A stretch of DNA of 21,843 nt from a bacterium (GTDB lineage Bacteria; UBA9089; CG2-30-40-21; SBAY01). The stretch spans positions 1 through 21,843 of the forward strand of contig JBFLYA010000046.1 in assembly GCA_040757115.1 (NCBI GenBank), given 5' to 3'. Below, piece after piece: positions 203 to 20,880 of the stretch (positions are counted from its first letter, which is position 1; each line of letters opens with the position of its first letter). Both the position numbers and the translations under genes were made by a program. The notes below the pieces were generated by a model, which had not been told where the DNA came from, ran no database searches, and was given only the letters and a program-made list of their open reading frames with translations.

Positions 203-265
203 GTGAATAGTTACATTAAAAGTAAGTAATCGGTTAACCGGTAACTAATAACCATTCACCAATTA
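203..265. repeat. Intergenic repeat block: dispersed 12-mer plus heptad array
   Basis: The 130-bp gap before the export gene holds one copy of the dispersed motif (GTGAATAGTTAC, 203-214) and then 7-bp words of form CnnnnnA from 231 to 265 (CGGTTAA, CCGGTAA, CTAATAA, CCATTCA, CCAATTA). CGGTTAACCG at 231-240 is a perfect palindrome. I see no convincing promoter here. Confidence 0.5.
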
Positions 266-288
266 CTAAAGTAATGGAGGAAAAAGAT

Positions 289-969
289 ATGAGTCTGCGG
301 TGGAGTTTTGTTTTTACTATTATTATATTATTTTTATTGAATGTGCTAATACAGAATTCATGGGCAAAAGATAGAACTTCTTACCTGTTGGGTAAGGATG
401 ATGTCATAAAGGTTTTTGTCTGGGACCATCCAGAATTAAGTGGTGATATGGTAGTTAATCCCGCAGGTAATATCTCCTTTCTTCTATTGGGAGATGTGAT
501 GGTTGAAGGATTAACAGAAGAGGAGTTAGAAAAGATATTAACCGAAAAGTTTTCCCAGTATATAATGGCTCCCCAGGTTTCGGTCACGATAGTAGGATAT
601 AACAGTAAAAAAATTTATATTTTAGGCGAAGTAAGTAAACCGGGTGAGTATCCAATTGGCGGAACGGTTATATCGTTACGGGAAGCTATACTCAAAGCCG
701 GCTTACCAACTAAATCTGCGGCACTGGGACGAGTGCGAATTATCACACCACAACCGACTAAACCAATAGTTAAAATCGTAAATCTATCACTGATTTTAAA
801 TAAAGGATGTTTGAAAGAAGATATTGATTTGCAGGCAGGGGATATAGTTTATATTCCATCTAATATACCAGCTAAAATAGGTGATGGTTTAGATAAAATT
901 GCGTCACCTATTAGTAGGATTCTTGCCTTTATAGGATTAATAGAAGGGATTAAAGGAATTGGGGAATAA
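289..969 (+). CDS. Polysaccharide biosynthesis/export protein (Wza/GumB-like, SLBB domain)
   Basis: This is the probable outer-membrane or periplasmic export channel subunit for exopolysaccharide. I chose the ATG at 289 (226 aa) because a strong GGAGG at 276-280 lies 8 nt before it; the upstream in-frame ATG at 274 overlaps that ribosome site. The N-terminus is a hydrophobic signal peptide of about 26 residues ending N-S-W-A. It has no lipobox Cys, unlike E. coli Wza. A Poly_export domain follows (YLLGKDDVIKVFVW, later VSVTIVGY), then an SLBB-type segment (IYILGEVSKPGEYPI). The last 25 or so residues form a hydrophobic or amphipathic helix, which may match the C-terminal pore helix of Wza (inference). 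The co-polymerase gene starts 9 nt after its stop, so the two are surely co-transcribed. Confidence 0.88.
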   Translation: MSLRWSFVFTIIILFLLNVLIQNSWAKDRTSYLLGKDDVIKVFVWDHPELSGDMVVNPAGNISFLLLGDVMVEGLTEEELEKILTEKFSQYIMAPQVSVTIVGYNSKKIYILGEVSKPGEYPIGGTVISLREAILKAGLPTKSAALGRVRIITPQPTKPIVKIVNLSLILNKGCLKEDIDLQAGDIVYIPSNIPAKIGDGLDKIASPISRILAFIGLIEGIKGIGE

Positions 970-978
970 GGAGAAGAG

Positions 979-2526
979 ATGGATATACTTAAAGCAACAC
1001 GAGTTAATATAGGTGATTATCTCCAGGTAATATTTCGTCGGAAATGGCTATTTATAATACCCTTTTTTACTATATTTCTTACGACGACAATAGGGGCTAT
1101 CTTTATGCCTAAAATTTATGAATCTAAGGCTATGCTTGTGGTAGAAGAAAAGCAACTTCTTTCACCATTAGTCAGTGGTATGGCTGTTGCACCTACTATT
1201 CAGGAACGTCTGGATATCTTAAAAGAGCAAATAACGAGTTGGTATAGGTTAGCCGAGATGGTTGAGGCATTAAAATTATGTACCTATACCAAAGACCAGA
1301 CTAAAATTAATGCCTATATTCAATCCCTTCAGAAGAGAATTAAAGTTATTTTAAAAGCAAGATTTCTTATTCAAGTATCTTTTGAAGATACAAATCCAAA
1401 AGTTGCTGAGGCAGTAGTCAACTATATTACTAAGAGTTTGGTTAAAGAAGAAATTTCTGGCCAGGAAGAAGAGGCACTTTCGGCTATTAAATTTATTGCG
1501 GATCAAGTTAAGCATTATCAAGAAAAACTTGAAGAGGCAGAGGCATCATTAAAAGACTTCAAAGAGAAAAATCTATTAGAATTGCCAGGTAGTGGTGGCT
1601 CAAACTTAGCTAAGGCAATTGGTATTAAAGATGCTCTGTTAGAAATTAGACTTGATTTACAAGAGGCTCATAAAACTAAACAATTGCTACAAAGACAATT
1701 GGCTAGTGAAGAAAAAATTATCACTTCTAAAACAACCTCAATAAATCCTGTTATCGAAAAATTAAACGCTAAATTGATTGAACTTCAAACAGAATTGAGT
1801 GACCTTAAGGCAAAAAAATGCACAGATGAACATCCATGGGTAATAGCGTTAAAGGATAGCATTCAAAAACTTGAAGCACGCATTGAAGATGAAAAACATT
1901 CAACAATAAGTAGTGAAGTAACAGAAGTTAATCCAACATATATGGAAATAGAGTCGAAATTACGCGATACAGAGGCATTAATTGATTCTCTGAGCGCCAG
2001 AGAAAAACAATTACAAGAATTAGCCACATCATATGAAAGCCGGGCAAGGATAGTTCCGAGTCAAGAACAAGAACTCACCCGGCTAACCAGAGATATGGGA
2101 GTGAATGAAAGTATTTATTCGATGTTATTAAATCGATTAGAAACAGCTAATATCTCTCAAAAATTAGAGAAGGCAGAACGCGGAACAAGATTTAAAATTA
2201 TAGACCCCGCAAGAGAACCTTTACACCCAATTAAACCTGATATGAATATGATGGTTTTTTTAGCATTTGTTATTGGGTCGATTTTTGGATGTGGATGTGT
2301 TTTCTTAGGCGAATATACAGACCATTCCTTCAGAAGCCTGGAAGATGCTGAATCTGTTTTAGCAGTCCCTTCTTTAGGCTCTATATCGAAAATAACTACT
2401 GTTGAGGAACTTATAAATCAGCGGGCAAAACAGAAAAGAAGAATCGTATTAGTGACAATTTTTACTCTATGTCTAGTCGGAGTGATTGTGTTTGTTGTTT
2501 TATTAACAATGAATCCTGTAAAGTAA
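979..2526 (+). CDS. Wzz/GumC-family polysaccharide co-polymerase (chain-length determinant), no kinase domain
   Basis: This 515-residue inner-membrane protein probably controls polysaccharide chain length and bridges to the export protein encoded just upstream. TM1 lies at about residues 24-44 (WLFIIPFFTIFLTTTIGAIF). A long Glu/Lys-rich coiled-coil region spans about 150-400, and TM2 is at about 425-443, preceded by the Pro-rich I-K-P-D turn typical of the family. After TM2 comes the Wzc-like linker (TDHSFRSLEDAESVLAVPSLGSI), but instead of a fused kinase there is a third hydrophobic segment at about 489-509. That segment would place the C-terminus in the periplasm. The cognate kinase is a separate gene at 2827. 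A G-G-A-G ribosome site precedes the ATG. The family call is firm; the exact polymer is unknown. Confidence 0.87.
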   Translation: MDILKATRVNIGDYLQVIFRRKWLFIIPFFTIFLTTTIGAIFMPKIYESKAMLVVEEKQLLSPLVSGMAVAPTIQERLDILKEQITSWYRLAEMVEALKLCTYTKDQTKINAYIQSLQKRIKVILKARFLIQVSFEDTNPKVAEAVVNYITKSLVKEEISGQEEEALSAIKFIADQVKHYQEKLEEAEASLKDFKEKNLLELPGSGGSNLAKAIGIKDALLEIRLDLQEAHKTKQLLQRQLASEEKIITSKTTSINPVIEKLNAKLIELQTELSDLKAKKCTDEHPWVIALKDSIQKLEARIEDEKHSTISSEVTEVNPTYMEIESKLRDTEALIDSLSAREKQLQELATSYESRARIVPSQEQELTRLTRDMGVNESIYSMLLNRLETANISQKLEKAERGTRFKIIDPAREPLHPIKPDMNMMVFLAFVIGSIFGCGCVFLGEYTDHSFRSLEDAESVLAVPSLGSISKITTVEELINQRAKQKRRIVLVTIFTLCLVGVIVFVVLLTMNPVK

Positions 2527-2528
2527 GT

Positions 2529-2806
2529 GATAACTGGTGATTGGTAAATGGTAATTATAGCAGTTATTAGTCAAATTTTACTCAGAGTGGATAAGTAAAA
2601 AATCCCAAATCCCAAGCACCAAATTCCACATACCAAAAAGCGAATTAGAGATTAGTGAATTAGAGATTAGATTTTACTAATTCGCTAATTCGCTTAATTC
2701 ACTAATTCACTAAATGGAATTTGGAATTTGTGATTTGGAATTTCATAGCCATATCTGGGTCAAATTTCGATTAATAAGTGCTATAAATACCATTTAACCA
2801 GTGACC
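2529..2806. repeat. MITE-like nested inverted-repeat element with heptad words
   Basis: This fills almost all of the 300-bp gap between the co-polymerase and kinase genes. Outer arms (about 2529-2591 and 2751-2806) are imperfect inverted copies. Their core at 2556-2578 (TATAGCAGTTATTAG...) matches the reverse complement of 2761-2785. Inside is a second palindrome of short words: AATCCCA, AATCCCA, AGCACCA, AATTCCA, CATACCA (2601-2635) pairing with TGGAATT, TGGAATT, TGTGATT, TGGAATT (2715-2742). GAATTAG-type words (2642-2670) pair with CTAATTC-type words (2677-2710). There is no ORF. The same terminal repeat occurs at 7204-7348. It could fold into a long hairpin in the operon transcript. Confidence 0.7.
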
Positions 2807-2826
2807 AACATAGAAGGAGTGCCAAA

Positions 2827-3672
2827 ATGGATGAATTAAACAAGAAATCAAAAAAGTCTAATATGGAACATCAAAAAGATGAGTTAGAAGATAATGGAAT
2901 GAGAGAGAAAAAAAGGCAGAAGATTTCTGTTCCGCCGCCTTCATTGTATGTGGCAAGTAGCAGAAAAGGTGGAGGGATAGATTCTCGAATAGTCACTTAT
3001 CATGACCCTAAAGCCCCTATCGCAGAACAGTATCGCATTCTAAGAACTAATATTCAACGCCTTACGCCGGAAAATCCCCCTCGCGTCATTGCGGTTACCA
3101 GTGCTTTACATCAGGAAGGTAAGACAACTACGGCGATTAATTTAAGTGTAGTTATGGCTCAGGACCTTCATAAAAAAATACTTCTATGTGATTGTGACCT
3201 CCGTAAACCAATGGTGCATAAATTGATGGGAATAGATTCCAATAAAGGAATAGCCGAAATCCTTCTTTATGATGCCGATATTGAATCTGTATTACACACT
3301 GGTAAAGTGGAGAATTTAACCATTCTTCCTTGTGGCAAAAGACCACCTAATCCTGCAGAATTACTTGGTTCATATAAAATGAAAGAATTGATAAATGAAT
3401 TAAGAACAAAATTTGACTACATAATTATTGATACCCCACCAGTTTTAGCTATTACAGATGTTGGAATTATCGCCGATTATATTGATGGAGTAATATTCGC
3501 TGTCCAGGCATGGAGAACACAACGAGAGGCAGTTTTAAGAAGTCAAGCACTACTCACAGCCGCACGCGCTAAAATTCTGGGATTTGTTCTGACAAATGTA
3601 GAACATTTTGTCCCAAGATATCTATATCACTATGGTTATGGTTACCAATATGGATATTATCACTACGCATAA
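2827..3672 (+). CDS. CpsD/CapB-family bacterial tyrosine kinase (BY-kinase), stand-alone
   Basis: This 281-residue cytoplasmic P-loop ATPase is likely to autophosphorylate on tyrosine and to work with the co-polymerase encoded upstream, as in split Wzc systems (CapA/CapB, CpsC/CpsD). Walker A is ALHQEGKT (93-100), Walker A' is ILLCDCDLRKP (118-128), and Walker B is DYIIIDTPP (197-205). The family-typical E-Q-Y-R-x-L-R-T-N-I sits at 67-76. The C-terminus is a dense Tyr cluster with nine Tyr between 265 and 280, the expected autophosphorylation site. The first 50 residues are Lys/Glu-rich and probably disordered. AGGAG ends 7 nt before the ATG. The gene overlaps the convergent gene at 3663 by 10 nt. 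Confidence 0.9.
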   Translation: MDELNKKSKKSNMEHQKDELEDNGMREKKRQKISVPPPSLYVASSRKGGGIDSRIVTYHDPKAPIAEQYRILRTNIQRLTPENPPRVIAVTSALHQEGKTTTAINLSVVMAQDLHKKILLCDCDLRKPMVHKLMGIDSNKGIAEILLYDADIESVLHTGKVENLTILPCGKRPPNPAELLGSYKMKELINELRTKFDYIIIDTPPVLAITDVGIIADYIDGVIFAVQAWRTQREAVLRSQALLTAARAKILGFVLTNVEHFVPRYLYHYGYGYQYGYYHYA

Positions 3673-5132
3673 AAAAGAAATAAAGTAACTGTTACCATTA
3701 TTTTAAGTGAACTTGCAAGGAATTCCAATGCCTCTTGCTTATTCTTAATTTTCTTATCAACAAATGCCTCCTCTACCTCTCTTAATAATTTACCTATCAG
3801 TGGTCCAGAGGGAAGTCCAAAATGTTCCATTATCTCACTGCCTTTAAGTATCTTTGGCGGCATAATCGTCTGTGAAGGAGAATAGAATTTATCTATCATA
3901 TTATTGATTGTTTGGTAGTATTTGTGCAGGTCTTCCGGAGAAACCTTTTGTCCTAAGGTTGCATATCTATCTGCTAATGTAAGTAATAAACTACTTATCC
4001 CCTCTTGCCCCATATCTCTAAAGAATCGATGCAGAGCACGGTTAGTAATTGTTGGTGCTTGAATAAGATAGCCTGGACGCATATGATTGCGAATGATTAA
4101 TCCCATCATCTTTTTTTCCTTCGTGCCCAATTTTAGCCTGCTGGCGATTTTTGAGGATATTTTAGCCCCCAATATTTCATGACCTATGAACCTGATTTTA
4201 CCCGAAATCTCTTGTGTCATTGTTTCGTATTTGCCAATATCATGGAATAATGAGATGAGCTTAAGATTAACCAATCTGTTATGTTCTTTAGTTATAGGCT
4301 CGTTTAAATATTTTCTTATTTCATTATGCCATCCGGGAAATAATCTCTCAAGGCTTGAAACTATACCTTCTAACTGAGCCAATGTCGCTATGGAATGTTC
4401 AAAGACAGATAAATGATGATAGCCGTTTTGTTTAATCTCTTTTAAAGGTATAATTTCTGGAATGATTTCTTCAAACAATCCTAATTTATCAAAGTGGGTT
4501 ATAAAAAAACTTGAATTTTTTGAAGATAATATTAAATAAATTTCATTAGTAATTCGTTCTGCACTAACATTGGAAATTAATCCTTTTGACTTAACAATGG
4601 TCGAGCAAGTATCCTTTTCTATCTCAAATCCTAATTTGCAACACAGCCGAACCGCTCTTAACATTCGTAATGGGTCATCTTGAAATGTATTGGGAGAGAT
4701 AATGCGGATAATTTTTTCTTGAAGGTCTTGGACGCCATTATTTTTATCAATAAGTTCAATATTTGCAGATGTTAAATCTATGGCGAGGGCATTTATGGTG
4801 AAATCTCGCATCTGCAGGTCTTCAGATATATTTTCTCCTTTAAGATTATTAAAGTCTAAATTTAGTGTCTGGTTTTTTAATTTACAGACAACTCTTGCTG
4901 TTCCTCTTTCTTTTTCTAAGAGGATGAAGGTTCCGCCTAAAACTTCAGCCACTTTTTGAGCAAAGGATAGGGCATCCCCTTTTATTGCAAAATCATAATC
5001 ATTAGACTCACGATTTACGAGGAAATCTCGAATATATCCTCCGACAAGATATAGAGGGAGATTCATCTTAATAGATAAATCTTTTATTATCGAAAGGGGA
5101 GGATTGCAGATTTTTATTTTATCTATGTTCAT
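3663..5132 (-). CDS. tRNA nucleotidyltransferase / poly(A) polymerase family protein with HD domain
   Basis: This 489-residue class II nucleotidyltransferase probably adds CCA (or A) to tRNA 3' ends. The head domain shows LVGGYIRD (29-36), the catalytic D45-x-D47 pair in NDYDFAI, and the RDFTINALA motif (109-117). The DPLRMLRAVRL motif (153-163) marks the RNA-binding neck. An HD phosphohydrolase domain follows with H297-D298 in LFHDIGK. Head, neck and HD order fits the bacterial CCA-adding/PAP family, and 489 residues is normal. CCA- versus A-adding specificity cannot be decided by eye. The ATG at 5132 has no clear Shine-Dalgarno. A terminator hairpin lies just upstream, so read-through or an unseen promoter must supply transcription. 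The 3' end overlaps the kinase gene tail to tail. Confidence 0.88.
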   Translation of the reverse strand: MNIDKIKICNPPLSIIKDLSIKMNLPLYLVGGYIRDFLVNRESNDYDFAIKGDALSFAQKVAEVLGGTFILLEKERGTARVVCKLKNQTLNLDFNNLKGENISEDLQMRDFTINALAIDLTSANIELIDKNNGVQDLQEKIIRIISPNTFQDDPLRMLRAVRLCCKLGFEIEKDTCSTIVKSKGLISNVSAERITNEIYLILSSKNSSFFITHFDKLGLFEEIIPEIIPLKEIKQNGYHHLSVFEHSIATLAQLEGIVSSLERLFPGWHNEIRKYLNEPITKEHNRLVNLKLISLFHDIGKYETMTQEISGKIRFIGHEILGAKISSKIASRLKLGTKEKKMMGLIIRNHMRPGYLIQAPTITNRALHRFFRDMGQEGISSLLLTLADRYATLGQKVSPEDLHKYYQTINNMIDKFYSPSQTIMPPKILKGSEIMEHFGLPSGPLIGKLLREVEEAFVDKKIKNKQEALEFLASSLKIMVTVTLFLFYA

Positions 5133-5155
5133 CTTTGGTAAATGGTAAAAAAGAA

Positions 5156-5188
5156 AGGAGCAAGATGCAAATTTTACCTCTTGCTCCT
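5156..5188. terminator. Bidirectional Rho-independent terminator
   Basis: A perfect 10-bp stem (5156-5165 with 5179-5188, core GGAGCAAGA/TCTTGCTCC) has a 13-nt loop. It is followed by T-runs on both strands: TTTTTTTT at 5191-5198 on plus, and the complement of A-rich 5147-5156 on minus. On minus it would end the lipoprotein transcript about 30 bp after its stop and just before the nucleotidyltransferase start. On plus it would stop read-through from the left. Confidence 0.78.
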
Positions 5189-5220
5189 CCTTTTTTTTAA
5201 TTTTTTTTCGTATTCCTCAC

Positions 5221-5436
5221 TTATTCTTTTGCAGCTGGTGCTTCTTCTGCTGGTGTTTCTTCTGAACTTACTTCCTCTGCTTCTTCTGTTGCTGCTTCTT
5301 CCTCAGGTGCTGTTGCTTCCTCTTCTACCGTAGTAGCTGGTGGAGCCTCTTCTTTTGCTGGTGGTGCACAACTTGACAGAATTGTAACGACTCCTACTAC
5401 CAGGCAGAATGACATTATCAATCTCATTATCTGCAT
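5221..5436 (-). CDS. Small acidic lipoprotein, Glu/Ala/Thr/Pro-rich
   Basis: About 71 residues. A short basic/hydrophobic signal ends in a lipobox LSSC (Cys23 from the ATG at 5434-5436). The remaining 48 residues consist almost only of Glu, Ala, Pro, Thr, Ser and Val, with one Lys near the Cys and one near the end. This predicts a lipid-anchored, disordered, highly acidic tether or spacer; no catalytic domain is present. GGAGGT at 5451-5456 lies 14 nt from the ATG and 11 nt from an in-frame TTG at 5437-5439, so the TTG is a possible alternative start. A near-perfect promoter (5574-5601), a palindrome next to the ribosome site and a terminator show it is a real single-gene unit. Its function is unknown. 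Confidence 0.75.
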   Translation of the reverse strand: MQIMRLIMSFCLVVGVVTILSSCAPPAKEEAPPATTVEEEATAPEEEAATEEAEEVSSEETPAEEAPAAKE

Positions 5437-5456
5437 CAATTTATCCTTTCACCTCC

Positions 5457-5479
5457 TTTTCTAAGGCTGCCTTAGAAAA
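5457..5479 (-). promoter_or_regulatory. 23-bp perfect palindrome abutting the lipoprotein ribosome site
   Basis: TTTTCTAAGGC, one central T, then GCCTTAGAAAA: an 11-bp perfect inverted repeat that ends exactly where the GGAGGT site begins on the minus strand. In the mRNA it would be a stable stem just upstream of the ribosome site, within a leader of about 130 nt. It could equally be a dimer operator. On the plus strand a T-run follows after a short gap (5487-5493), but no plus-strand gene is there to terminate. Confidence 0.55.
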
Positions 5480-5720: not shown

Positions 5721-5738
5721 GAAGCGTGGAAAAGTAAT

Positions 5739-6899: not shown

Positions 6900-7097
6900 A
6901 TGTTAGGACCAATTGGACTGCCAGAATTAGGGGTTATTTTAGTGATAGTGTTGGTTATTTTTGGCGCAGGGAAATTACCTCAGGTAGGTAAAAGCCTGGG
7001 GAAAGGGATTAAAGAATTTCAATCGGCAATTAAAGGTAGTGATGAAGAAAGTAATGAGAACAAAAAAGGCGAGATTAAAGAAAAAACAGGAGAATAA
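6900..7097 (+). CDS. tatA: Twin-arginine translocase TatA/TatE-family subunit
   Basis: 65 residues. An N-terminal membrane helix ([20 protein letters not shown]) is followed at the hinge by the F-G-x-x-K-L-P motif. Then come an amphipathic helix ([17 protein letters not shown]) and a charged, Lys/Glu-rich tail. Length and layout fit TatA, the pore-forming part of the Sec-independent export system for folded proteins. GGAGGTG ends 7 nt before the ATG. A second Tat subunit gene lies 268 bp downstream, and no tatC is present in the window. TatA versus TatE cannot be told apart from sequence alone. Confidence 0.88.
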
Positions 7098-7176
7098 GGA
7101 TGCAGGTAACGAGCCAGCCATAGATGCACACAGACTCTCCTGTGTTATTTATCCATGCTGACCCGTGTTAATCAGT

Positions 7177-7348
7177 GGCTGAATAGTTACCCTCACTTTC
7201 TCTTATAGTAAGTATTAACCAAAAGTTCACATTAGTATTGTTGATAGTTGATGGTTGATAGTCTATGAAACTATCAACTATAAACTATCAACCATCAACC
7301 CTGTTGCTATATCTGTTCTATGAGAAATTTTCGTTAATAACTACTATA
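7177..7348. repeat. MITE-like inverted-repeat element between the two Tat genes
   Basis: A copy of the dispersed motif (CTGAATAGTTAC, 7177-7188) precedes an element with terminal inverted repeats at 7204-7227 and 7325-7348. These share the TATAGTA...TATTAAC core with the element at 2529-2806. The interior is a heptad hairpin: GTTGATA, GTTGATG, GTTGATA (7240-7260), then ACTATCA, ACTATAA, ACTATCA, ACCATCA (7270-7297). It ends directly before the ribosome site of the next gene. Confidence 0.68.
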
Positions 7349-7365
7349 TCTGTGAGGTGATAGGG

Positions 7366-7575
7366 ATGTTTGGAATTGGTATGTCAGAATTGATTATTAT
7401 TCTTATAATTGCTCTTATTGTTTTTGGTCCTAAAAGGATGCCGGAAATGGGTAAGGCTCTGGGACGGGCAATGAAAGAATTCAGAAAGGCAACACAAGAA
7501 TTAAAAGAAGAATTACAATTTAATGAATCTGGAGGGCATTTAGAGAAAGAAAAAACTAAAGAATTACTCGGTTAA
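7366..7575 (+). CDS. Twin-arginine translocase TatA/TatB-family subunit
   Basis: 69 residues from the ATG at 7366. I prefer this start to an in-frame GTG at 7357 because GAGGTG (7354-7359) lies 6 nt before the ATG and overlaps the GTG. The membrane helix (ELIIILIIALIVFGPKRMPE) starts with a conserved Glu and ends in F-G-P-K-R-M-P-E, which is more TatB-like than the gene at 6900. The amphipathic helix GKALGRAMKEFRKATQELKEEL follows. Many non-proteobacterial lineages use TatA-type proteins for both roles, so the TatB label is tentative. The Glu at the start of the membrane helix is the polar residue expected for TatB or for contact with TatC. Confidence 0.82.
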   Translation: MFGIGMSELIIILIIALIVFGPKRMPEMGKALGRAMKEFRKATQELKEELQFNESGGHLEKEKTKELLG

Positions 7576-7635
7576 GAGGAGATTCACGGTTAATCTCAAA
7601 ACCTTGAACCCTGTGAACCCAATTAACTCCTTTTT

Positions 7636-7937
7636 AGGGTTCTGCAAAATAGGATTTGGGGGAGACAACAAATAAATATCAAATATTAAATATCAAAATG
7701 CAAAATTACAAATCAAATTTCAAAAAGGAAATAGCAGGGTTTCTCAAAGAGTTGGAGGAATTTGGTAATATCTTTGCTTCAAGTATTTTAACGCTGAAAG
7801 GAAAGAGATAATTTTACATTTTGATATGTAATTTTTATATTTGCTTTTTGCATTTTGCTCTTTGGAGGAAATTGATAAAAATAGAGGTTTTAAATACCCG
7901 CTTAAAAACTACAATTTCCTATTTTTGCAGAACTCTA
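7636..7937. repeat. About 300-bp element with terminal inverted repeats and heptad arms
   Basis: The convergent gap 7576-7945 is mostly one element. Ends at 7636-7652 (AGGGTTCTGCAAAATAGG) and 7917-7936 are inverted copies with one substitution and one extra A. Inside, heptads AAATATC, AAATATT, AAATATC, AAAATGC (7674-7701) face CTTTTTG, CATTTTG, CTCTTTG (7844-7864). A 37-codon open frame at 7698-7811 begins within a heptad and lacks a ribosome site, so I do not call it a gene. The element has no recognisable transposase and could be a MITE. Confidence 0.55.
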
Positions 7938-7945
7938 AACTCCTT

Positions 7946-8416
7946 TTAAAATATATCCTTTGGATTTAAATTTTTAAGTTCCTCTTTAAATCTTCTCATT
8001 TCCTCATCATCAATAGGATGTTGGGGCATAGAAATGGTGCTTATCACATGGTCTGTAACAAAAATAGGTGAATCGGTTCTTAAAGCTAATGCAATTGCAT
8101 CACTTGGCCGAGAATCTACCTCAACTAAATTGTTCCCATAATTAATAAATACTTTAGCAAAATAAGTGTTATTACAAAGTGCCGTAATTACTATTTTATC
8201 GACCTCTCCACCCATAGTTTCAATAACTGATTTCAATAAATCATGGGTTAGTGGTCGTGGTGGAAGTATTCCTTCTAATGCAAAAAGTATTGCCTGTGCC
8301 TCAAATATACCCACCCAAATTGGAAGTGCTTTTTGCCCATCCTCATTTTTCAAAATAATAATAGGCATATTATTATTATCAACCGCTATTCCTACTACCT
8401 TCATTTGTTCTATCAC
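7946..8416 (-). CDS. Bifunctional nuclease (BFN, DUF151) domain protein
   Basis: 156 residues. The start is a GTG at 8414-8416: GGAGGG (8425-8430) lies 8 nt upstream, whereas the first ATG (8404) would be 20 nt away. The BFN core is visible as MPIIILKNEDGQKALPIWVG, EAQAILFALEG, RPLTHDLL and VDSRPSDAIALALRT. The RPSDAIALA motif is the most diagnostic part. Family members, such as the Thermotoga structure and plant BBD proteins, are described as having DNase and RNase activity or regulatory roles; the in vivo role in bacteria is unclear. The UVR motif some homologues carry at the C-terminus is absent, and the end is short and charged. It is a single-gene unit with a likely promoter at 8461-8489. 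Confidence 0.88.
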   Translation of the reverse strand: MIEQMKVVGIAVDNNNMPIIILKNEDGQKALPIWVGIFEAQAILFALEGILPPRPLTHDLLKSVIETMGGEVDKIVITALCNNTYFAKVFINYGNNLVEVDSRPSDAIALALRTDSPIFVTDHVISTISMPQHPIDDEEMRRFKEELKNLNPKDIF

Positions 8417-8595: not shown

Positions 8596-9082
8596 GTAAG
8601 CGTTCAGCCACACAGACACAGAGTTCACAGAGAATTAAGGAAAGTAGCCACAAATGGATACGAATTAACCTCTGACATCCCATAAATGTAGTGCGAAGCT
8701 TTAAGTTCGCCTTTTGGCTTGCCAGAAGCGAATCTAACGCCTCGCAGTACAAATCTTTGTAAGCGTTCAGGTGGTGTAAGAAAAGGAGATATGGAGATAA
8801 AGGAGATAAGGGGATATATTTAGGAGTTTTTGGTGAAAGGATTAGGGTTAGGAAGCTGGTTTGGTTTAGGGGTTATAAAAGTTAGTCTTTTTGCATAACC
8901 ATTTTGCCCAATTATCCAGGAAATTTATAATCTCCACATCTCCCCAATCCCCTTATCTTCCTTCTTACACTTCTAATGTATAACCTGAACGGTTACAAAT
9001 CTTTATTGTATTTGTGTTCATTCGTGGTTATATATTTCCTCTGTGTTCTCTGTGACTCTGTGGCTATATCCTGACGATTACC
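8596..9082. repeat. About 490-bp doubly nested inverted repeat
   Basis: This fills most of the 716-bp gene-free stretch 8417-9132. Outer arms 8596-8640 and about 9030-9082 are imperfect inverted copies (both contain the GCCACA...CACAGAG words). Inner arms 8759-8815 and about 8935-8996 repeat the plan with GGAGATA-like words facing TATCTCC-like words. Copies of the dispersed 12-mer mark the edges: minus-oriented at 8596 and 8759, plus-oriented at 8985, with a degenerate copy at 9071. The 66-codon frame inside is not a credible gene. Confidence 0.6.
8687..8751. repeat. 65-bp palindromic repeat
   Basis: TGTAGTGCGAAGC (8687-8699) faces GCCTCGCAGTACA (8739-8751), and pairing continues inward through TTCGC/GCGAA. 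The loop is around CTTTTGGCTTGCC. It is more GC-rich than the surrounding repeats and sits inside the larger nested element, which suggests a separate short mobile palindrome. Confidence 0.5.
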
Positions 9083-10634: not shown

Positions 10635-10650
10635 TTAGTTTATTAAAGGG

Positions 10651-10692
10651 ACTCGGGGCTCGGGACTCGGGACTCGGGGCTCGGGACTCGGG
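10651..10692. repeat. Perfect heptanucleotide tandem array, 6 x [A/G]CTCGGG
   Basis: Six back-to-back 7-bp units (ACTCGGG, GCTCGGG, ACTCGGG, ACTCGGG, GCTCGGG, ACTCGGG) begin 17 bp after the LbH gene stop. This is the clearest heptamer array in the window and much more GC-rich than its surroundings. Confidence 0.9.
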
Positions 10693-10716
10693 AATAAAAG
10701 AATCCCCTAACCCCGG

Positions 10717-10770: not shown

Positions 10771-10815
10771 ATTTTCAGGAGAACGGTCATGAACCATTAG
10801 TTCACAAATGAAGAT

Positions 10816-11134
10816 GAGAATAGTAGGTAGGAGATAGAAGGTAGGAGGTAAGGAGATAAGCGTGAGGAGTGGTGTTTTCTTTACTTTCTACTTTCTACTC
10901 TCTACTTTCTTATTTTCAGGAGAATAGTAGGTAGGAGATAGAAGGTGGAAGATGGGGAGATAAGCGTGAGGAATGATGTTTTCTTTACTTTCTACTTTCT
11001 ACTCTCTACTTTCTTATTTTCAGGAGAATAGTAGGTAGGAGATAGAAGGTGGAAGATGGGGAGATAAGCGTGAGGAGTGGTGTTTTCTTTACTTTCTACT
11101 TTCTACTCTCTACTCTCTACTTTCTTATTTTCAG
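10816..11134. repeat. Three tandem 104/104/111-bp leader repeats before the acyl ligase
   Basis: Copies are 10816-10919, 10920-11023 and 11024-11134. Each has a purine-rich heptad arm (for example AGTAGGT, AGGAGAT, AGAAGGT, AGGAGGT at 10822-10849) and a pyrimidine-rich arm (TTTCTAC, TTTCTAC, TCTCTAC, TTTCTTA at 10885-10912), and ends in TTATTTTCAG plus GGAGAA. The third copy is longer by exactly one 7-bp word (an extra TCTCTAC). Copy differences are otherwise few point changes, so the duplication is recent. The last AGGAG (11133-11137) is the ribosome site of the ligase. Confidence 0.85.
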
Positions 11135-11144
11135 GAGAAGTAGA

Positions 11145-12788
11145 ATGCTCAAAGGGTTAAATAGTATTGAAGATATAATAGATACTCTGAAGAAATATGG
11201 TGAAAAAATAGCCCTTCAGATAAAAGGAGATACAGGGTTTCATAGTTTATCATATCTTGAACTAAATAATAGAAGTTTTGATGTTTCATCGACATTGATT
11301 AAATCAGGGGTTGAAAAAGGAGACAGAATTGCAATCCTTTCTGAAAATAGACCCGAATGGGCAATTGCCTTCTTTGGCATTATCTTTTCCGGGGCAATCG
11401 TTGTGCCGCTCGACATCAAACTAAAAGAAAAAGAATTGACTTACATCCTCAATAATTGTGAGGCAGAATATATCTTCGCCTCTGCCAGATTTATTGACCT
11501 CATCAAAACTCTAAAAACTAAAATTAGAATGGTCATATCCCTGGATGAAAAGATAGGGGAAGATATTCTTTCTTTAAAAGAGTTAAAGTCTGTTGAAGGA
11601 GAACTTAAACACCGTGCCATAGAACTAAACGATACTGCGGTAATTATTTACACCTCAGGGACTACCGGCAATCCTAAAGGTGTAGAACTGACTTATCAGA
11701 ATCTTTTTTTTCAAATTTCCTCCTTTGGTAAAATGCTCAAATATGGAGCTAAGGATAATTTCCTCTCTATTTTGCCATTAAATCATGCCTATGAACTTAT
11801 CTGTGGATTTTTAGGACCACTTCACGGTGGCTCATCCATTACCTATCTGCGGAGTTTAAAACCTGCAGAAATCATCTCGACTATGAAACAAACCCAGACC
11901 ACAATTATGATTGTTGTGCCTTTGATATTACAGATGTTTTACAAAAATGTGATGAAAGAGATTGAAAAATCCCCAATCCATATTAAAAAATCATTTGAGA
12001 TGATTTTAGTGCTGTCAAAATATTTAGGGAAATGGAATACCATCAGATACCTGCTTTTTAAAAAGGTTCATTTGGGATTTGGTGGTAGGTTACGGTGTTT
12101 TATTAGTGGTGGTGCACCACTTGACCCACAAATAGCCACGAATTTCCAATTAATGGGCATACCTGTGCTTCAAGGTTATGGACTTAGTGAAACCTCACCT
12201 GTAACCTCAGCTAATACATTTAAGGAAAATCGCCCTGGCTCTGTTGGAAAACCTTTACCAGAAGTAAATGTAAAAATTAGTGATGAAGGAGAAATACTTA
12301 TTCAGGGACCCCATTTAATGAAGGGATACTTCAAAGACTCTGCCCTGACACAAGAAGCAATAAGAGATGGTTGGTTTCATACCGGAGATATAGGTGAGAT
12401 TGATAAGGATGGATTTTTATACATTAAAGGCAGGCTAAAAAATCTTATCGTAACCGCTGGCGGTAAGAAAATTCACCCGGAAGAAGTTGAAGAAGAAATC
12501 TTAAAAAGCCCCTGTATCAAAGAGATATGTGTTATCGGAAAACCAGGCAGGAAAGGTGGAGAAGAGGTTTATGCGGTGGTTGTGCCTGATTATGACTATT
12601 TTAAAGAAAAAGATGAGGAAGGGATAAAAAAACTCGTTGAGAAGGAGATAAAAAAATATTGTTCGATCTTAGCCGATTATAAGCGGATCGTGGATTTTGA
12701 GATATGGAAAGGAGAGTTACCTAAAACTTCGACAAGAAAGGTGAAAAGAAAAGAGATATTGGAAAGGATTCAGCAGGGACAAAGATGA
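11145..12788 (+). CDS. AMP-forming acyl-CoA synthetase/ligase (long-chain fatty-acid type)
   Basis: 547 residues from the ATG at 11145, chosen because AGGAG (11133-11137) lies 7 nt upstream. The open frame extends further left, but only through the tandem leader repeat. It activates a carboxylic acid with ATP to an acyl-adenylate and usually passes it to CoA. The P-loop-like A3 motif is IIYTSGTTGNPKG, then VLQGYGLSETSP (A5), FHTGDIGEIDKDGFLYIKGR (A7/A8 hinge) and GGKKIHPEEVEEEI. A C-terminal Lys in LPKTSTRKVKR is the likely catalytic A10 lysine. Length and motif order fit the bacterial long-chain acyl-CoA synthetase group. The substrate is unknown. The hydrolase and LbH genes upstream point to a small lipid-modifying set, though 510 bp of repeats lies between. 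Confidence 0.88.
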   Translation: MLKGLNSIEDIIDTLKKYGEKIALQIKGDTGFHSLSYLELNNRSFDVSSTLIKSGVEKGDRIAILSENRPEWAIAFFGIIFSGAIVVPLDIKLKEKELTYILNNCEAEYIFASARFIDLIKTLKTKIRMVISLDEKIGEDILSLKELKSVEGELKHRAIELNDTAVIIYTSGTTGNPKGVELTYQNLFFQISSFGKMLKYGAKDNFLSILPLNHAYELICGFLGPLHGGSSITYLRSLKPAEIISTMKQTQTTIMIVVPLILQMFYKNVMKEIEKSPIHIKKSFEMILVLSKYLGKWNTIRYLLFKKVHLGFGGRLRCFISGGAPLDPQIATNFQLMGIPVLQGYGLSETSPVTSANTFKENRPGSVGKPLPEVNVKISDEGEILIQGPHLMKGYFKDSALTQEAIRDGWFHTGDIGEIDKDGFLYIKGRLKNLIVTAGGKKIHPEEVEEEILKSPCIKEICVIGKPGRKGGEEVYAVVVPDYDYFKEKDEEGIKKLVEKEIKKYCSILADYKRIVDFEIWKGELPKTSTRKVKRKEILERIQQGQR

Positions 12789-12994
12789 AATAAAGAGTCA
12801 AAACATTCAGGAAGCGATTTCCTATCACTATAAAAATCAACAATATACTCCCCAATAGGCTTTTGTCTCATAAACTGATAGCCATTCATCTTTCTGCTTC
12901 TCAAATACTTCCAAAGCAATACTTCCGATAAAACCCCTTGCTTTCTAAGTTCTCTGGCGTAAGTTTTCAATTTCGGATTGTAATGAATCTTCAT
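12770..12994 (-). pseudogene. DUF559 (PD-(D/E)XK-like endonuclease domain) fragment
   Basis: A 74-codon frame. Residues 1-56 (MKIHYNPKLK, SEVLLWKYLRS, GYQFMRQKPIGEYIVDFY) clearly match the start of DUF559 proteins, which usually run to about 110-130 residues. After the first catalytic Asp (VDFY) the similarity stops and the last 18 residues look random, so the second acidic residue, the Lys and the rest of the fold are missing. The frame runs into the 3' end of the acyl ligase by 19 nt. Its ATG (12992-12994) coincides with the first unit of the 28-bp tandem repeat. A truncated remnant is most likely; a short functional protein is unlikely. Confidence 0.78.
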
Positions 12995-13076
12995 ACTTAC
13001 AACCCCCTAACCCCCTTTATATACTTACAACCCCCTAACCCCCTTTATATACTTACAACCCCCTAACCCCCTTTAT
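12993..13076. repeat. Three perfect 28-bp tandem repeats
   Basis: Units 12993-13020, 13021-13048 and 13049-13076 are identical: ATACTTACAACC, CCCTAACC, CCCTTTAT. 28 bp equals four heptamers. The last unit runs into TAAGGGGG, so CCCCCTT and AAGGGGG (13067-13084) can form a hairpin. It overlaps the start of the DUF559 remnant. Confidence 0.9.
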
Positions 13077-13380
13077 TAAGGGGGAATATCTGTCCTCCAC
13101 CTCTAATCTTTTCTATATTTGGGTGAGGGAATTTCGTGAAGCCCTATTCTATCTGTGTTAATCCGTGTCCATCAGTGGTTGAATGAGGACATCAGTTTTA
13201 AGTTTTGAGTTGTAGATTTGACTTTTGACATTTGAGTTTTGAGTTAATATTGTCCAGTTTGATGGGCAAGGCTGAACGGTTACCTTTTATGTGCTCTAAT
13301 TTATTTCTATGTCTTCTCTGCGAACTCTTGCGTCTCTGCGGTAAAGGACTACCTGAACGGTTACGAATTATCGACCTGTG
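13077..13380. repeat. Repeat-filled spacer with heptad array and two dispersed 12-mers
   Basis: There is no gene. Heptads AGTTTTA, AGTTTTG, AGTTGTA, GATTTGA, CTTTTGA, CATTTGA, GTTTTGA run from 13194 to 13242. Perfect copies of CTGAACGGTTAC sit at 13272-13283 and 13353-13364. Phrases of the kind GTGTTAATCCGTGT and GCGTCTCTGCGGTAAAGGAC recur from other spacers. Confidence 0.6.
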
Positions 13381-13386
13381 CGGTTA

Positions 13387-13509
13387 AATGTAAAATGGAT
13401 AATGTAAAATGAGAAATGTAAAATGAAAATGTATAACTGAAAGGTAATGAGTCTTGCGAAGTCCTAAAATTTCCCATTTTTCATTTCCTATTTTACATTT
13501 TACATTTAT
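13387..13509. repeat. Heptad hairpin upstream of the giant secreted protein
   Basis: Six 7-bp words AATGTAA, AATGGAT, AATGTAA, AATGAGA, AATGTAA, AATGAAA (13387-13428) face five complementary-type words CATTTTT, CATTTCC, TATTTTA, CATTTTA, CATTTAT (13475-13509). The loop is about 46 nt. It lies 55 bp before the promoter. Confidence 0.75.
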
Positions 13510-13563
13510 TTTTCCTTTGCGTCTCTGCGATGAATTAGTCTAATCGCACAGGTGGAATTTTAT

Positions 13564-16600: not shown

Positions 16601-19600
16601 GAGGCTTTATTAGCCCTTTTTGAATTAGAGGCGAAAGAAGAATATCTTATTCGGGGTAAAGTTGTTAGTTTTTCAAATAAAACGCCGATTGAAGGTGTTC
16701 TGATGACACTTTCTGGCACTACCTTTGATATATTTACTACGGGTGCAAATGGTTATTATGAATTTAAAGGCACACCAGGGGGAACTTATACCATTACTCC
16801 ATCTAAAACCGAATATGTATTTTATCCAAGAACAATTAAACCTTTAAATACTCATTATGATAATTTTGATTTTGAAGGTTATTGTGGCAAGATTACCTCT
16901 GTTTCACCTGTTGCCGGGACAATAGGAATTCCTATCACGATTACTGGTGAAGGATTTACAGAGGAGGAAATTCGAATAAGTTTTGGGGGCGTTATTACGG
17001 TGATGATGATTAAATCCAGTCCTCTGGGAACATTTACGGCGATTTTTACTGCTCCTGCCCAGCCCTCCGCAACGATAACGATTACGGCGTATGGAAGTAT
17101 TTCAACAATGGTTGGGATTAATTATTTCTTCCTCAAGGCGTTACACCATTTTACCATAGGCACAATTACCTCACAAATAGCCGGGAAAGGTTTTGAGATT
17201 TTTATCAGTAGCCTCGATGCCCACAATGACATTTTTGAATATAGTGGCACGGCGACATTGACAGATGACTCGATGACCATCTTTCCTTCTGAAACAACAC
17301 CTTTTAGTGCAGGTAATTGGAGTAGCAATGTGCTGATTACTAAAGTCGGCACAACCACGATTAAGGTTTTAGCTGAAAATAAAACAGGCATAAGCAATTC
17401 TTTTCTTGTTAGCCCGGCACCAATAAATAAATTAGTTTTTGTTACATCCACTCAGACTATTACCGCGGGCAGTTCCACTGCCTTCATTCTTTTTCAGACA
17501 CAGGATGAATTTGGTAATCCATCACCGACTCAAGCTGATGTCCAGATTCAACTTTTGAGTTCGAGTTTAAAGGGTCAATTCTCTCTGACCAAATCTCCCT
17601 GGCTACCTACAAATACTATCACACTTGCCTCAGGAACCGATACAGGTGGATTTTATTATTTAGATACATTGGTTGGAACACATACGATTATAGTCAAAGA
17701 TGGAGTCTGGGTAGCTGGGACTCAATCTGTCATTGTTAATCCTGCGGTGATTGACCATTTTACATTTCAGACCATCACCACACAAACCGCAGGTCAAGAA
17801 TTTCAGATTCAAATTCAAGCCGTAGATGTTTTTGAGAATCTTGTTAATTTTAACGGAACGGTTAGTTTGACGGACACATTCCCCGGGATAGCGACATTTA
17901 CCGCCGGTATCTCGCAGGCATCTGTGACGATAACAAAAGCAGGGACGACTTCCATATTTGCTTTATTTGAGAGTAAGTCTGGCACCAGTAATCCTTTTTG
18001 GGTAAATCCAGCTGAATTTTCTCAGTTGACCATTGGCACGATTACCTCACAAATCGCCGGTCAGCCATTTACGATTAAAATAACGGCTCTGGATGTCTAT
18101 GGGAATATAGCCACATACAGTCAAACTGCGGATTTAAAGGCAGAAACTACCTCCCAAATTACCTTTACTCAAGGTATCTACGAAGGCACGCTAACCATAA
18201 CAAAAGCAGGCACAACCACTGTTTACTGTTCGGGGTTCATTAATTACTTTATCTCCGGTACAAGTAATCAATTCTTTGTTAGACCAGCTGTCTTAGACCA
18301 CTTTGCCTTCGGGACTATCTCCTCTCAACAGGCAGGGATTGAATTTGAGATTGAGATTACAGCCTTTGATGCCTACAAAAACATTGCTACTTACACGGGT
18401 ATTGCCTATCTAAATATTTTACCCTATCAAACTAATCCTTTTACCAATGGATTTTGGAAAGGAACCGTGACGACAACTAAATCAGGCACAACAACGATTA
18501 TTGCCTTTATTGACAATAAACAGGGCACAAGTAATGATTTCTGGGTTAGCCCGGCAGATTTAGACCATTTCTCCTTTGCCACGATTACCGACCAGATTGC
18601 AGGACAGGGATTTGGAATTACCATTATTGCCAGGGATATTTATGAGAACATCACCAATTATAATGATAAAGTTAAATTACAGGATATTTCAAATACCCTT
18701 ATAGGCACATTAACCGATAATTTTAAACAAGGTTTATGGCAAGGGACGGTGAGTATAACCAGAGCAGGCACTACCTGTATTTTTGCTACCTCAAATGGTA
18801 AGAACGGAACAAGTAATACCTTTTCTGTTAACCCGGATGCCCTCAATAAAATCGTCATTAGCCCACCGGAGAAGGTATTAGGGATAGAAGATGAATGTCA
18901 GTTTAATGCCTCTGGATTTGATAAATATGAGAATGAGATACTCGGATTAGATTACACCTGGCAGACAATAATTGGCAATGTTAATCCTTCGGTAGGCAGA
19001 TGGACATTATTTAAAGCTGGAATTATACTCACTACCGGAACATTAACCGCAAGTTACGGGCCAATTATTGGCTATGCCACGATTACTGTGGAAAGTGGCA
19101 CCTTAAGTTATATAATCATTACGCCGTCAATAACCACAATGGTTGTTGGAGAAAGTAAAATATTTTTCGCTACCGGCTATGACAAATATGAAAATGAGCA
19201 GGTAATCGAAGGGGGGTTTTGGGAAATAGAGAATGGAATAGGTAATATTTCTCCATCTATGGGCACATGGACAAAATTTACTGCAGGTTTAAAAGCCGGT
19301 TGTGGCAGGTTAAAATACCAGTTAAATCAAGTATTAGCCTTTGCGACTATTACTATTTTACCAGGCACACATACCTGTTTTCAAATTGGCACTATTTCTT
19401 CTCCACAAATCGCCGGTGTGCCATTTGCCGCCACAATTACTGCCCAGGATGCCTACGGAAATATTATTGATTATACCGGAAGTGTGATTTTGACCATTTC
19501 TTCTGGCAAAATATCTCCGAATGCAGTTAATCTTACCTATGGGATATGGACAGGGACAATAACTTTGCTAAACTCGGCAGAAAATGTATTTCTCACGGTT

Positions 19601-20674
19601 CGAGATACAGTGAAAGGCACAAGTAATCTTTTTAGTGTTCAAGCCAATGTTTTTGACCACCTTAAAATAAGTGAGATTGGTCTGTCGCAATTGATTAATT
19701 CTCAAATTCCTATTGTCATCACTGCGGAAGATGTTTATGGAAATATCAACACAGATTTTAATGGGACTTTTAGCCTGACAGATGATACGGGCACGATTGA
19801 GCCTGATGAAGGCTCTTGTATTTCAGGCAAATGGGCAGGTTCAGTAACTATCTCAAAGGCAAAACCTAATATCAGAATTACCGTTATTTCTTCAAATAAG
19901 ACCGGGATAAGTAATCTATTTACTACCCTCATCGATAATGATTTAAACATAACTCTTGTAGAGGAGAATACATCTATTGAGATACCGAGAGGGATTTTGC
20001 CAACAGATTTTTACATCGTTATTGATAAAGAACCTGAGGAAGAAGCAATGGAGATAAATATAGCCAATTCATTGTTATCCCATGACCCTACAGTGAAGGG
20101 GATAGCAGATTCATTACGGTTATTTCAGCCATATAATAAAGATAATAAGCCGATAGAAGTGGGGACTGATTCTTTTATTTTGATTTCCCTGCCTTATTTA
20201 GATGAAAATCAAGATGAGTTTGTTGATGTGCCTGATGCAAAAATACCTGAGATGTCACTTAAAATATATAAATTAGAGACGGCAAGTCCTATCCGTTGGA
20301 TAGAAGTCGAAGGTTGTTCGACAGTTCATCCTTATAAAAATATTGTTAGTGCCTATGTGCCGCGATTTGGTATCTATATGTTACTTGGACAGATTATCCC
20401 TGAAAATCTTAATCTCATTGTTGTCTATCCCAATCCGTTCAAACCTATTCGTGGGGATAGGGAAATTATATTCGATGGTTTGCCTGTAAATACCTATATC
20501 AGAATATATGACATCTCTGGAAGTTTGATAAAGGAAATTCACGATGCCTCAACCAGTTATCCCTGGGATGTAAAAGATGCTTATGGACGGGATGTTCCCA
20601 GCGGTATCTATATTTATCTCATCACCAATGATAAAGGGATGAAAAAAACAGGCAAGATAGCGATTATCAGATGA
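13601..20674 (+). CDS. Giant secreted multidomain protein: SNase, lamin-tail, GH8-like toroid, Ig repeats, sorting-like tail
   Basis: 2357 residues. A signal peptide (1-20) is followed by a staphylococcal-nuclease-like domain (34-159) with all key residues: D43, D45, R59, D64, E67 and R107 (equivalents of D19, D21, R35, D40, E43, R87). A lamin-tail-like domain spans about 167-275 (INEINPNPAG, AEFVELYN). A large helical region at about 340-1010 looks like an alpha/alpha-toroid; its second half resembles glycoside hydrolase family 8 (VPSEATSQAL with E703; NAAIDDLRAIRGLLLAYD with D763/D764). Next come a carboxypeptidase-regulatory-like domain (1015-1095) and an IPT/TIG domain (1097-1175). About ten Ig-like repeats of 85-110 residues (1181-2112) follow, eight ending in a GTSN-F-V-type or similar motif and two (1750, 1837) of a different subtype. 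The C-terminal segment has YPNPFKP (about 2276) and a FlgD-like tail. Probable role: surface enzyme degrading extracellular DNA and perhaps polysaccharide. Confidence 0.85.
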   Translation: MKRVVIILAILLLLAKESTASLSDFLNPGSATQISGTVTSIIDGDTIKVEMSGTETTVRLLSIDTPELMDEPFAQTAKDFASQTLSTQPIQLFYSKNPTQQWDDYGRLLAVVVKDDEIFNLKLLEQGLAVRMFIFNDIIKFPAWEDVEIWARQQGLNIWSNINQKGIFINEINPNPAGTDTDAEFVELYNNTATAVDVSNWAFISIYNEFIIPAGTTIPANGYLIIARTDTASFKQIYTTTPPSTIIIDAGDNLILRNSYIPEEDLLIHLKADDKSYQDSLTYNLEWDNGDANDTGRTLERKSLSLTNVGDSEVGGVDDLNWDASLNLKGSPGESNIRDELDVASWIITCQRTTGAICTDDFQTKIIPYKANIAAMGLLEKGGYEGIVKKWIEWFFAHLEWGTIYDYLVQSDTEISIYPAEAEDRNLVTFFSLLKKYYQATFDVDFLKNYQSQLNEMGIWLLFVLQDFNDYLIWTNTNNGGERKLLINNAESYHGLKDLASLYFDLDFDDNLTQRDLFNSGAESIKQAINTELWNANSYYWEKDNLGNKTACNWATVYPDAVSQLHTILNNVNLPEDSISGGLYQTFSHFPPDTDFYAEVSYAASLMADTTNTELYQDSIMANVINQGYPSPWDVEDAGFYLLAENRLAEVEEIQPLINQPQELCQNFIDSRMLIPWGGIQAQFMNTAQPSQTDGVNHEVPSEATSQALLYAAATNDKAFFDEQFEILIDNHLSPKDVLVWKLKPNSEWWENNGGSYANAAIDDLRAIRGLLLAYDNFGDENYLNYARLLAAGLKSHNIEGNELRDYFAWNDGLENISQDVVLSYIDLATIKRLTEFDTGWETILQTNKNIMLGGTTTSGLFYHKYTSNQNQYYGMENSFINMIHSAWTAENLARYWKITADQECRTASTKFLDFAKNEYNTYGKIYGQYDINTGIHSVEYEDIAVYSIIARLAFILGDFEFASTLKKNKILNYQNKEIKSQTVGCFGFDWTNPYAFVCLEALLALFELEAKEEYLIRGKVVSFSNKTPIEGVLMTLSGTTFDIFTTGANGYYEFKGTPGGTYTITPSKTEYVFYPRTIKPLNTHYDNFDFEGYCGKITSVSPVAGTIGIPITITGEGFTEEEIRISFGGVITVMMIKSSPLGTFTAIFTAPAQPSATITITAYGSISTMVGINYFFLKALHHFTIGTITSQIAGKGFEIFISSLDAHNDIFEYSGTATLTDDSMTIFPSETTPFSAGNWSSNVLITKVGTTTIKVLAENKTGISNSFLVSPAPINKLVFVTSTQTITAGSSTAFILFQTQDEFGNPSPTQADVQIQLLSSSLKGQFSLTKSPWLPTNTITLASGTDTGGFYYLDTLVGTHTIIVKDGVWVAGTQSVIVNPAVIDHFTFQTITTQTAGQEFQIQIQAVDVFENLVNFNGTVSLTDTFPGIATFTAGISQASVTITKAGTTSIFALFESKSGTSNPFWVNPAEFSQLTIGTITSQIAGQPFTIKITALDVYGNIATYSQTADLKAETTSQITFTQGIYEGTLTITKAGTTTVYCSGFINYFISGTSNQFFVRPAVLDHFAFGTISSQQAGIEFEIEITAFDAYKNIATYTGIAYLNILPYQTNPFTNGFWKGTVTTTKSGTTTIIAFIDNKQGTSNDFWVSPADLDHFSFATITDQIAGQGFGITIIARDIYENITNYNDKVKLQDISNTLIGTLTDNFKQGLWQGTVSITRAGTTCIFATSNGKNGTSNTFSVNPDALNKIVISPPEKVLGIEDECQFNASGFDKYENEILGLDYTWQTIIGNVNPSVGRWTLFKAGIILTTGTLTASYGPIIGYATITVESGTLSYIIITPSITTMVVGESKIFFATGYDKYENEQVIEGGFWEIENGIGNISPSMGTWTKFTAGLKAGCGRLKYQLNQVLAFATITILPGTHTCFQIGTISSPQIAGVPFAATITAQDAYGNIIDYTGSVILTISSGKISPNAVNLTYGIWTGTITLLNSAENVFLTVRDTVKGTSNLFSVQANVFDHLKISEIGLSQLINSQIPIVITAEDVYGNINTDFNGTFSLTDDTGTIEPDEGSCISGKWAGSVTISKAKPNIRITVISSNKTGISNLFTTLIDNDLNITLVEENTSIEIPRGILPTDFYIVIDKEPEEEAMEINIANSLLSHDPTVKGIADSLRLFQPYNKDNKPIEVGTDSFILISLPYLDENQDEFVDVPDAKIPEMSLKIYKLETASPIRWIEVEGCSTVHPYKNIVSAYVPRFGIYMLLGQIIPENLNLIVVYPNPFKPIRGDREIIFDGLPVNTYIRIYDISGSLIKEIHDASTSYPWDVKDAYGRDVPSGIYIYLITNDKGMKKTGKIAIIR

Positions 20675-20701
20675 AGTCATAGTGTCGTGTTGAGCAAATT
20701 C

Positions 20702-20880
20702 GGTAACTATTCAGCCACTGATTAACACGGATTAGCACGGATGAATAGCAGAGGGCAGAAGGCAGAGGGCAGAGGACAACAGGAGAAAAACCCTTCAGCC
20801 TAATTACGGACACGGAAAACGGACACGATTTACGAATTTTCAGTGTTTCATCCGTGTCCATCTGTGGCTGAATAGTTGCC
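20702..20880. repeat. About 180-bp inverted-repeat element with heptad core
   Basis: Left arm from 20702 (GGTAACTATTCAGCCAC) and right arm to 20880 (GTGGCTGAATAGTTGCC) are inverted copies, each extending through an ACACGGAT-type phrase. Inside are four heptads GCAGAGG, GCAGAAG, GCAGAGG, GCAGAGG (20748-20775). The element starts 28 bp after the stop of the giant gene. The 64-codon minus frame across it is not a credible gene. Confidence 0.68.

Follow-up and report, generated by a model that had tools for sequence, protein, structure and literature searches.

Heptanucleotide arrays in the spacers of a UBA9089 bacterium as likely arms of short mobile palindromes

Tandem arrays of 7-bp words (heptads) were studied in the intergenic DNA of a bacterium of the lineage UBA9089 (GenBank assembly GCA_040757115.1, here genome G000), starting from contig JBFLYA010000046.1 (C46), the whole of which, 21,843 bp, is called the window. 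We consider it likely that the spacers are filled with short, non-autonomous palindromes resembling miniature inverted-repeat transposable elements (MITEs), often nested, and that the arrays mainly serve as their arms and cores. These palindromes would spread by transposition, and slippage or unequal exchange would change the number of 7-bp units in their arrays. The G000 genome is 4.32 Mb in 462 contigs; 1.21 Mb of it (28%), including 211 kb of intergenic DNA, was read directly, and the genome-wide figures for arrays and elements refer to that portion. A sister genome of the same genus, G001, with 92-99% identity in aligned stretches, was used for comparison.

Lag 7 is the dominant period of G000 intergenic DNA. 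The 5,282 intergenic bases of the window contained six strict lag-7 arrays and none in 100 dinucleotide shuffles, no strict array was found at any other lag from 4 to 12, and Tandem Repeats Finder returned about 15 period-7 rows. All the heptad blocks listed in the original prediction, which was made from the letters of the window, were present at their positions, but block 2601-2635 is weak (70% matches) and 13387-13428 is better described as 14-bp units. The autocorrelation analysis proposed there was run on G000 intergenic DNA at lags 1-40 and gave 0.3197 at lag 7 versus 0.2751 after shuffling, the biggest excess of all, followed by lags 14, 8, and then 2 and 21; the outcome named beforehand as adverse, no lag-7 excess genome-wide, did not occur. 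With a threshold of at least 18/21 matches, 180 arrays were found at lag 7, 32 at lag 8 and 12 at lag 6. The approximately 8 found in shuffles are probably runs of N, because a near-constant number appeared at almost every lag.

Two superfamilies of elements were recognised by their ends. Elements of the GTAA type share the terminal repeat GTAAC(C/T)(G/A)TTCA, and a search with the pattern GTAA[CGT]NNTT[CT]A found 111 end pairs with an 8-bp target duplication (at least 7/8 matching bases) against 2 in the null. Their interiors fall into 55 end types that have only the first 11-12 bases in common. The second superfamily has ends TAG(A/C/T)A(C/G)TTATTA with TA on both sides in 22/22 pairs, a feature also of IS630/mariner-type elements. 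Both superfamilies thus combine terminal inverted repeats with target duplications of fixed size, as MITEs do. Occupied and empty orthologous sites, the other mark of MITEs, were also found: 132 kb of orthologous sequence contained 17 clean indels between G000 and G001, many of them palindromic elements with terminal inverted repeats and target duplications, several of these exact. Matches to the element library covered 27.6% of intergenic and 0.8% of coding bases.

Heptad arrays were found to be concentrated in these elements. About 65% of the non-coding G000 arrays (115/177) lay within library elements with the match extending past the array, compared with 25% of random intergenic 35-mers, and a multicopy flank was seen for 90% of arrays versus 65% of random intergenic DNA. 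In orthologous spacers of the two genomes elements were cleanly present or absent, and the same spacer could hold different ones. Between the gene ending at 2526 and the gene starting at 2827, for example, the window has a TA-type element inside a GGTAACTGG palindrome, and in G001 the same palindrome hosts other elements. The pattern described in the original prediction, a hairpin plan kept while the word changes, is therefore real but is read differently here: the plan is constant and the word different because different mobile palindromes occupy the same spacer in sister genomes. Selection on the arrays as regulatory or structural sites (protein-binding arrays, terminators or insulators) would fit their position between genes and the predicted hairpins, which were stronger than shuffles in 3/4 elements tested (DNA fold z -2.7, -6.6 and -4.3). 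We regard it as extremely unlikely, given that orthologous sister spacers carry different elements or none, that unit numbers drift freely, and that conserved sites were not found. The elements need have no function other than mobility.

Arrays are also paired. As predicted, they are often followed by a complementary-type array: a complementary stretch was found within 350 bp for 118/300 non-coding arrays and for 21/300 random intergenic segments. Adjacent arrays often carry the same word head to head with arms 2-9 bp apart, and 34 of 67 neighbouring array pairs had the same word inverted, against 7 expected with randomly drawn words. Arm lengths over the 34 inverted pairs were uncorrelated (Spearman 0.12, p = 0.49).

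Arrays change in length by whole units. In the window, the TTTTCAGGAGAA marks at 10913, 11017 and 11128 are spaced by 104 and 111 bp, so the third copy is longer by exactly one heptamer, as had been noticed. Element subfamilies differ by 7, 14 or 21 bp (lengths 208/215/222/236, 140/147 and 151/158), and over 539 element pairs 27/39 gaps of at least 4 bp inside arrays were multiples of 7, versus 38/334 outside. Intergenic gaps between G000 and G001 also bore out the expected steps, with 12 of 7 bp, 8 of 6 bp and 2 of 8 bp; a lack of concentration at multiples of 7 was not observed. The CATTCAC subfamily has a left-arm array spanning several unit numbers and a right-arm array that is a unit shorter in other copies. 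The arms therefore vary independently, which favours slippage or unequal exchange over templated copying. Of the three mechanisms offered earlier, mobile hairpins and slippage fit the data and templated copying is disfavoured. A dedicated templated copier, for instance a reverse transcriptase with a 7-nt RNA template or hairpin-templated gene conversion, would write the same word in both arms. It could account for the 34/67 inverted pairs, G000 has two matches to reverse-transcriptase genes (loci L358 and L359), and the word AGTAGAG recurs exactly across phyla. The uncorrelated arm lengths, the separate change of left and right arrays within one subfamily, the ordinary transition share among array variants and the binding of words to mobile copy families make such a copier very unlikely.

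A special mutational code inside arrays was considered and rejected, as the transition share was close to background (460 transitions and 279 transversions within arrays, 144 and 97 in orthologous spacers). In two end lineages, both with lag 7 only, the array begins in the terminal repeat itself, but such seeding is not general.

The word dictionary is small. The 236 arrays in about 1.2 Mb of G000 reduce to 56 canonical words, and about a dozen recurring words make up most arrays, among them ACTCGGG, AACTATC, AAAGTAG, AGAGGGC, ACTCTCT, AAACTAT, AATTCAC, AATTACC, AAATTCC, AAATATC and AACTGGT. The earlier statement that each block has a different word holds within the window but fails genome-wide, and the system producing many different heptad words that was derived from it finds no support; words recur, so there is no open-ended word generator. 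The dictionary is small and recurring because the words travel inside copy families of mobile palindromes. Whole-genome counts in two genus members gave 82 and 83 AGTAGAG arrays (1 and 0 for the reversed-word control) and 127 and 19 AACTATC arrays.

Beyond this genome, an exact 26-bp AGTAGAG array was found in at least 120 stretches of one-per-species genomes, in unrelated contexts. Among the matches listed, record titles named Bacillota, Chloroflexota, Planctomycetota, Bacteroidota, Fibrobacterota, Pseudomonadota and others, and the contigs concerned contained, away from the seed array, 46 period-7 arrays against 10 at period 8. These 46 arrays, again among the matches listed, comprised 32 words, only 5 of which are shared with the G000 dictionary. 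What such genomes have in common is thus the period of 7, and for the most part not the word. Outside the phylum, AGTAGAG arrays turned up in just 2 of about 200 genomes. For AACTATC, no universal spread specific to the word was found: it occurs in 5/19 genomes of the phylum and in just 2 of about 213 others (scrambled-word control: 0 in the phylum, 2/232). Arrays of TACTTTC/CTCCCTA type in the same phylum appear inside open reading frames (L093:1380-1700 in G011 and L098:1380-1700 in G017), that of L093 apparently within a signal-peptide-like N-terminus.

These data bear on pure replication slippage of simple sequence. On that view each array, like the long simple sequence repeats of Mrazek et al. 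(2007), would have its own origin at any place in a spacer, and mobile elements would contain arrays only incidentally. Lone arrays in single-copy DNA (17/177), the unrelated contexts of AGTAGAG in many phyla and the dominance of period 7 in other genomes (46 versus 10) are consistent with it, and many bacteria are cited as having heptanucleotides as their most frequent class of long repeat, with a proposal of polymerase slippage at 7 nt (cited in PMC4679880 and PMC4692102). The concentration of arrays in mobile elements (65% versus 25%), their multicopy flanks, and pairing far over chance and beyond what slippage alone yields make it rather unlikely as the whole explanation. A common generator working in 7-nucleotide steps, be it a polymerase-like enzyme or something inherent in how bacteria replicate or repair DNA, may alternatively write arrays from a partly common dictionary in many phyla, with mobile palindromes as its best-preserved record. 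We keep this idea open, though we judge it unlikely, because exact AGTAGAG arrays recur in unrelated contexts across phyla and period 7 dominates elsewhere on those contigs.

Under the preferred reading, that of mobile palindromes with heptad arms, transposition in trans would spread each word; clean insertions with target duplications were observed, and the transposase is putative. The largest superfamily may be moved by an IS66-type transposase, to judge from the like 8-bp duplications, and the others are TA-targeted or have other ends. Inside each copy, 7-bp units are won and lost in the steps observed, presumably through slippage or unequal exchange. New words could come from ordinary point mutation and, in the two end lineages, from tandem duplication of the terminal repeat, as the sequences GTAAC-TATTCAC-CATTCAC and GTAAG-CGTTCAG-CCATCAG suggest. 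The tight head-to-head pairs with 2-9 bp between arms probably form when a nascent strand snaps back and copies itself. A minority of arrays stand alone in single-copy DNA.

Insertion sequences of the IS66 family have ends starting with GTAA and 8-bp target duplications, and the GTAA-type elements fit both traits. Intact tnpA, tnpB and tnpC in a full-length element were not found in G000, where TnpC matches were fragmentary or stop-containing; because these degraded matches are the only ones there, the elements are named IS66-like MITEs and not members of IS66. The short imperfect palindromes of REP/BIME type, mobilised by a REP-associated tyrosine transposase (RAYT), lie beside the RAYT gene and flank it. 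Y1-type transposase genes are present in G000, and at three of their loci scanned for element ends (L346-L348) one GTAA end (L348) and one chance-like CCTGTGCG match (L347) were seen.

Several observations weigh against mobile palindromes as the explanation. An intact parent transposon with GTAA-type ends was not found in G000; the best IS66 transposase copy, although placed between GTAACCGTTCAG ends, contains stop codons and lacks a matching target duplication. Nor was a parent of the TA type found, the IS630-type genes having no flanking TA-type ends. About 35% of arrays have no assigned library element, 17/177 have single-copy flanks, and when G000 and G001 are aligned directly, 7-bp gaps are in excess by only a small number. 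Slippage alone leaves the choice of seven unexplained. G000 is, moreover, a draft assembly of which only 28% was read directly.

The features of the window are listed in Table 1.

Table 1. Heptad arrays and palindromic elements in the window
Position	Strand	Feature	Remarks
231..273	.	Heptad-type array with units resembling GGTAAC/CCAATTAC	Poly_export gene just downstream; two extra 7-bp units in G001
2556..2786	.	TA-type mobile palindrome, 231 bp	Terminal repeats about TAGCAGTTATTAGTCAAA / TAGCACTTATTAATCGAAA, TA-flanked; outer arms AAATCCC/GGAATTT heptads (2601-2635, 2715-2742), inner arms GAATTAG/CTAATTC (2642-2713); host site an older GGTAACTGGTAATT palindrome; G001 spacer with other elements
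7203..7349	.	TA-type-looking palindrome	GTTGATA (7240-7262) head-to-head with AACTATC (7269-7299); DNA fold z = -6.6
7635..7937	.	Mobile palindrome with GGGTTCTGCAAAATAGGA ends and AAATATC arrays	Missing at the G001 orthologous site; target duplication AACTCCTTTT (7625-7634 / 7938-7947)
8596..9081	.	Older GTAA-type palindrome, CCACACAGACACAGAG arms	Split by the newer element 8759-8996
8759..8996	.	GTAA-type element, 238 bp, 8-9 bp word arms AAGGAGATA	8-bp target duplication AAATCTTT; missing in G001
10648..10693	.	GGGACTC array, 6.6 units	About three units shorter in G001
10810..11140	.	Three hairpin units bounded by TTTTCAGGAGAA	Arms AGGAGAT/GTAGGTA and TTTCTAC heptads; over 40 related copies across G000; missing from the orthologous G001 spacer
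13194..13245	.	AGTTTTG-type heptad array	Word shared with another genome of the phylum (L095)
13368..13555	.	Dispersed palindromic element, CCTGTGCG ends	AAATGTA / TACATTT heptad-14mer arms (13386-13442, 13469-13507); many G001 copies; DNA fold z = -4.3
20703..20879	.	GTAA-type palindrome, 10-bp word arms CACGGATTA / ATCCGTG	Holds GCAGAGG array 20748-20775; ends decayed, target duplication gone

The predicted GTG start (11049) of an open reading frame for an AMP-binding enzyme falls in the third hairpin unit, which lengthens the reading frame; the gene, a real one, probably begins at an ATG near 11145. Tandem TatA-like genes, recognised by eye, lie at 6901-7098 and 7367-7576, and the spacer between them holds a mobile palindrome. 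At 12993-13076 a 28-bp unit (ATACTTACAACCCCCTAACCCCCTTTAT) is present three times in perfect tandem, with an 8-bp repeat internal to each.

GTAA-type elements also occur with arms of 8-10-bp words (CGCAGAGA, CACAGAGTT and CACGGATTAA) in G000 and G001, for example at L046:4193-4436 and L061:4646-4923 and, in the window, at 8596-9081 and 20703-20879. Outside heptad arrays, the distribution of gap lengths has peaks at 8, 10 and 18. The unit-array plan seems also to exist with periods other than 7.

The reason for the bacterial preference for 7-bp repeats has been open since 2007. G000 and G001 share dozens of orthologous spacers that differ by a few percent, and from these one can establish in what order arrays were born, grew, paired and were lost. 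Heptads are linked here to mobile palindromes, a link generally absent according to the Xanthomonas study (PMC4692102). Library matches make up more than a quarter of the sampled intergenic DNA; the elements therefore shape spacer evolution and confuse assembly and annotation in poorly known phyla.

Over-representation of heptanucleotides is already known, as heptanucleotide long simple sequence repeats (Mrazek et al. 2007) and as the short tandemly repeated repetitive (STRR) sequences of Calothrix, both as cited in PMC4679880 and PMC4692102. G000 likewise has an intergenic excess of tandem 7-bp units and length change by whole units. As far as these repeats are portrayed in the two citing papers, the G000 arrays resemble them in having tandem 7-bp units that are mainly intergenic, in the dominance of heptads, in lengths varying between relatives and in a few recurring words; they differ in their wider dictionary and in that most of them form the arms or core of a mobile palindrome that has terminal repeats and is flanked by target duplications. 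The GGGAATC repeats of Xanthomonas have a near-identical word type (GGGACTC in G000), often converge in pairs (70 such cases for the 186 repeats of X. campestris) and drift in length between relatives, but are reported generally to lack an association with mobile elements (PMC4692102), unlike the G000 arrays, most of which lie in such elements. The TAACTGA repeats of Beggiatoaceae, Cyanobacteria and Bacteroidetes are also short intergenic heptad arrays, patchy across phyla, but consist of one word, mostly just upstream of start codons and hardly ever inverted (PMC4679880).

MITEs with heptad arms had no match in the literature searched, and heptads as apparent arms of MITE-like elements, and the extent of this, are new to us. 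Like MITEs derived from insertion sequences of IS66 type or IS630/Tc1-mariner type, the G000 elements are short, without transposase, have terminal inverted repeats and target duplications (8 bp or TA), occur in many copies and are polymorphic for presence or absence. Unlike them, they have arms built of tandem 7-bp (or 8-10-bp) words, 55 interiors behind one 11-bp end, and nesting.

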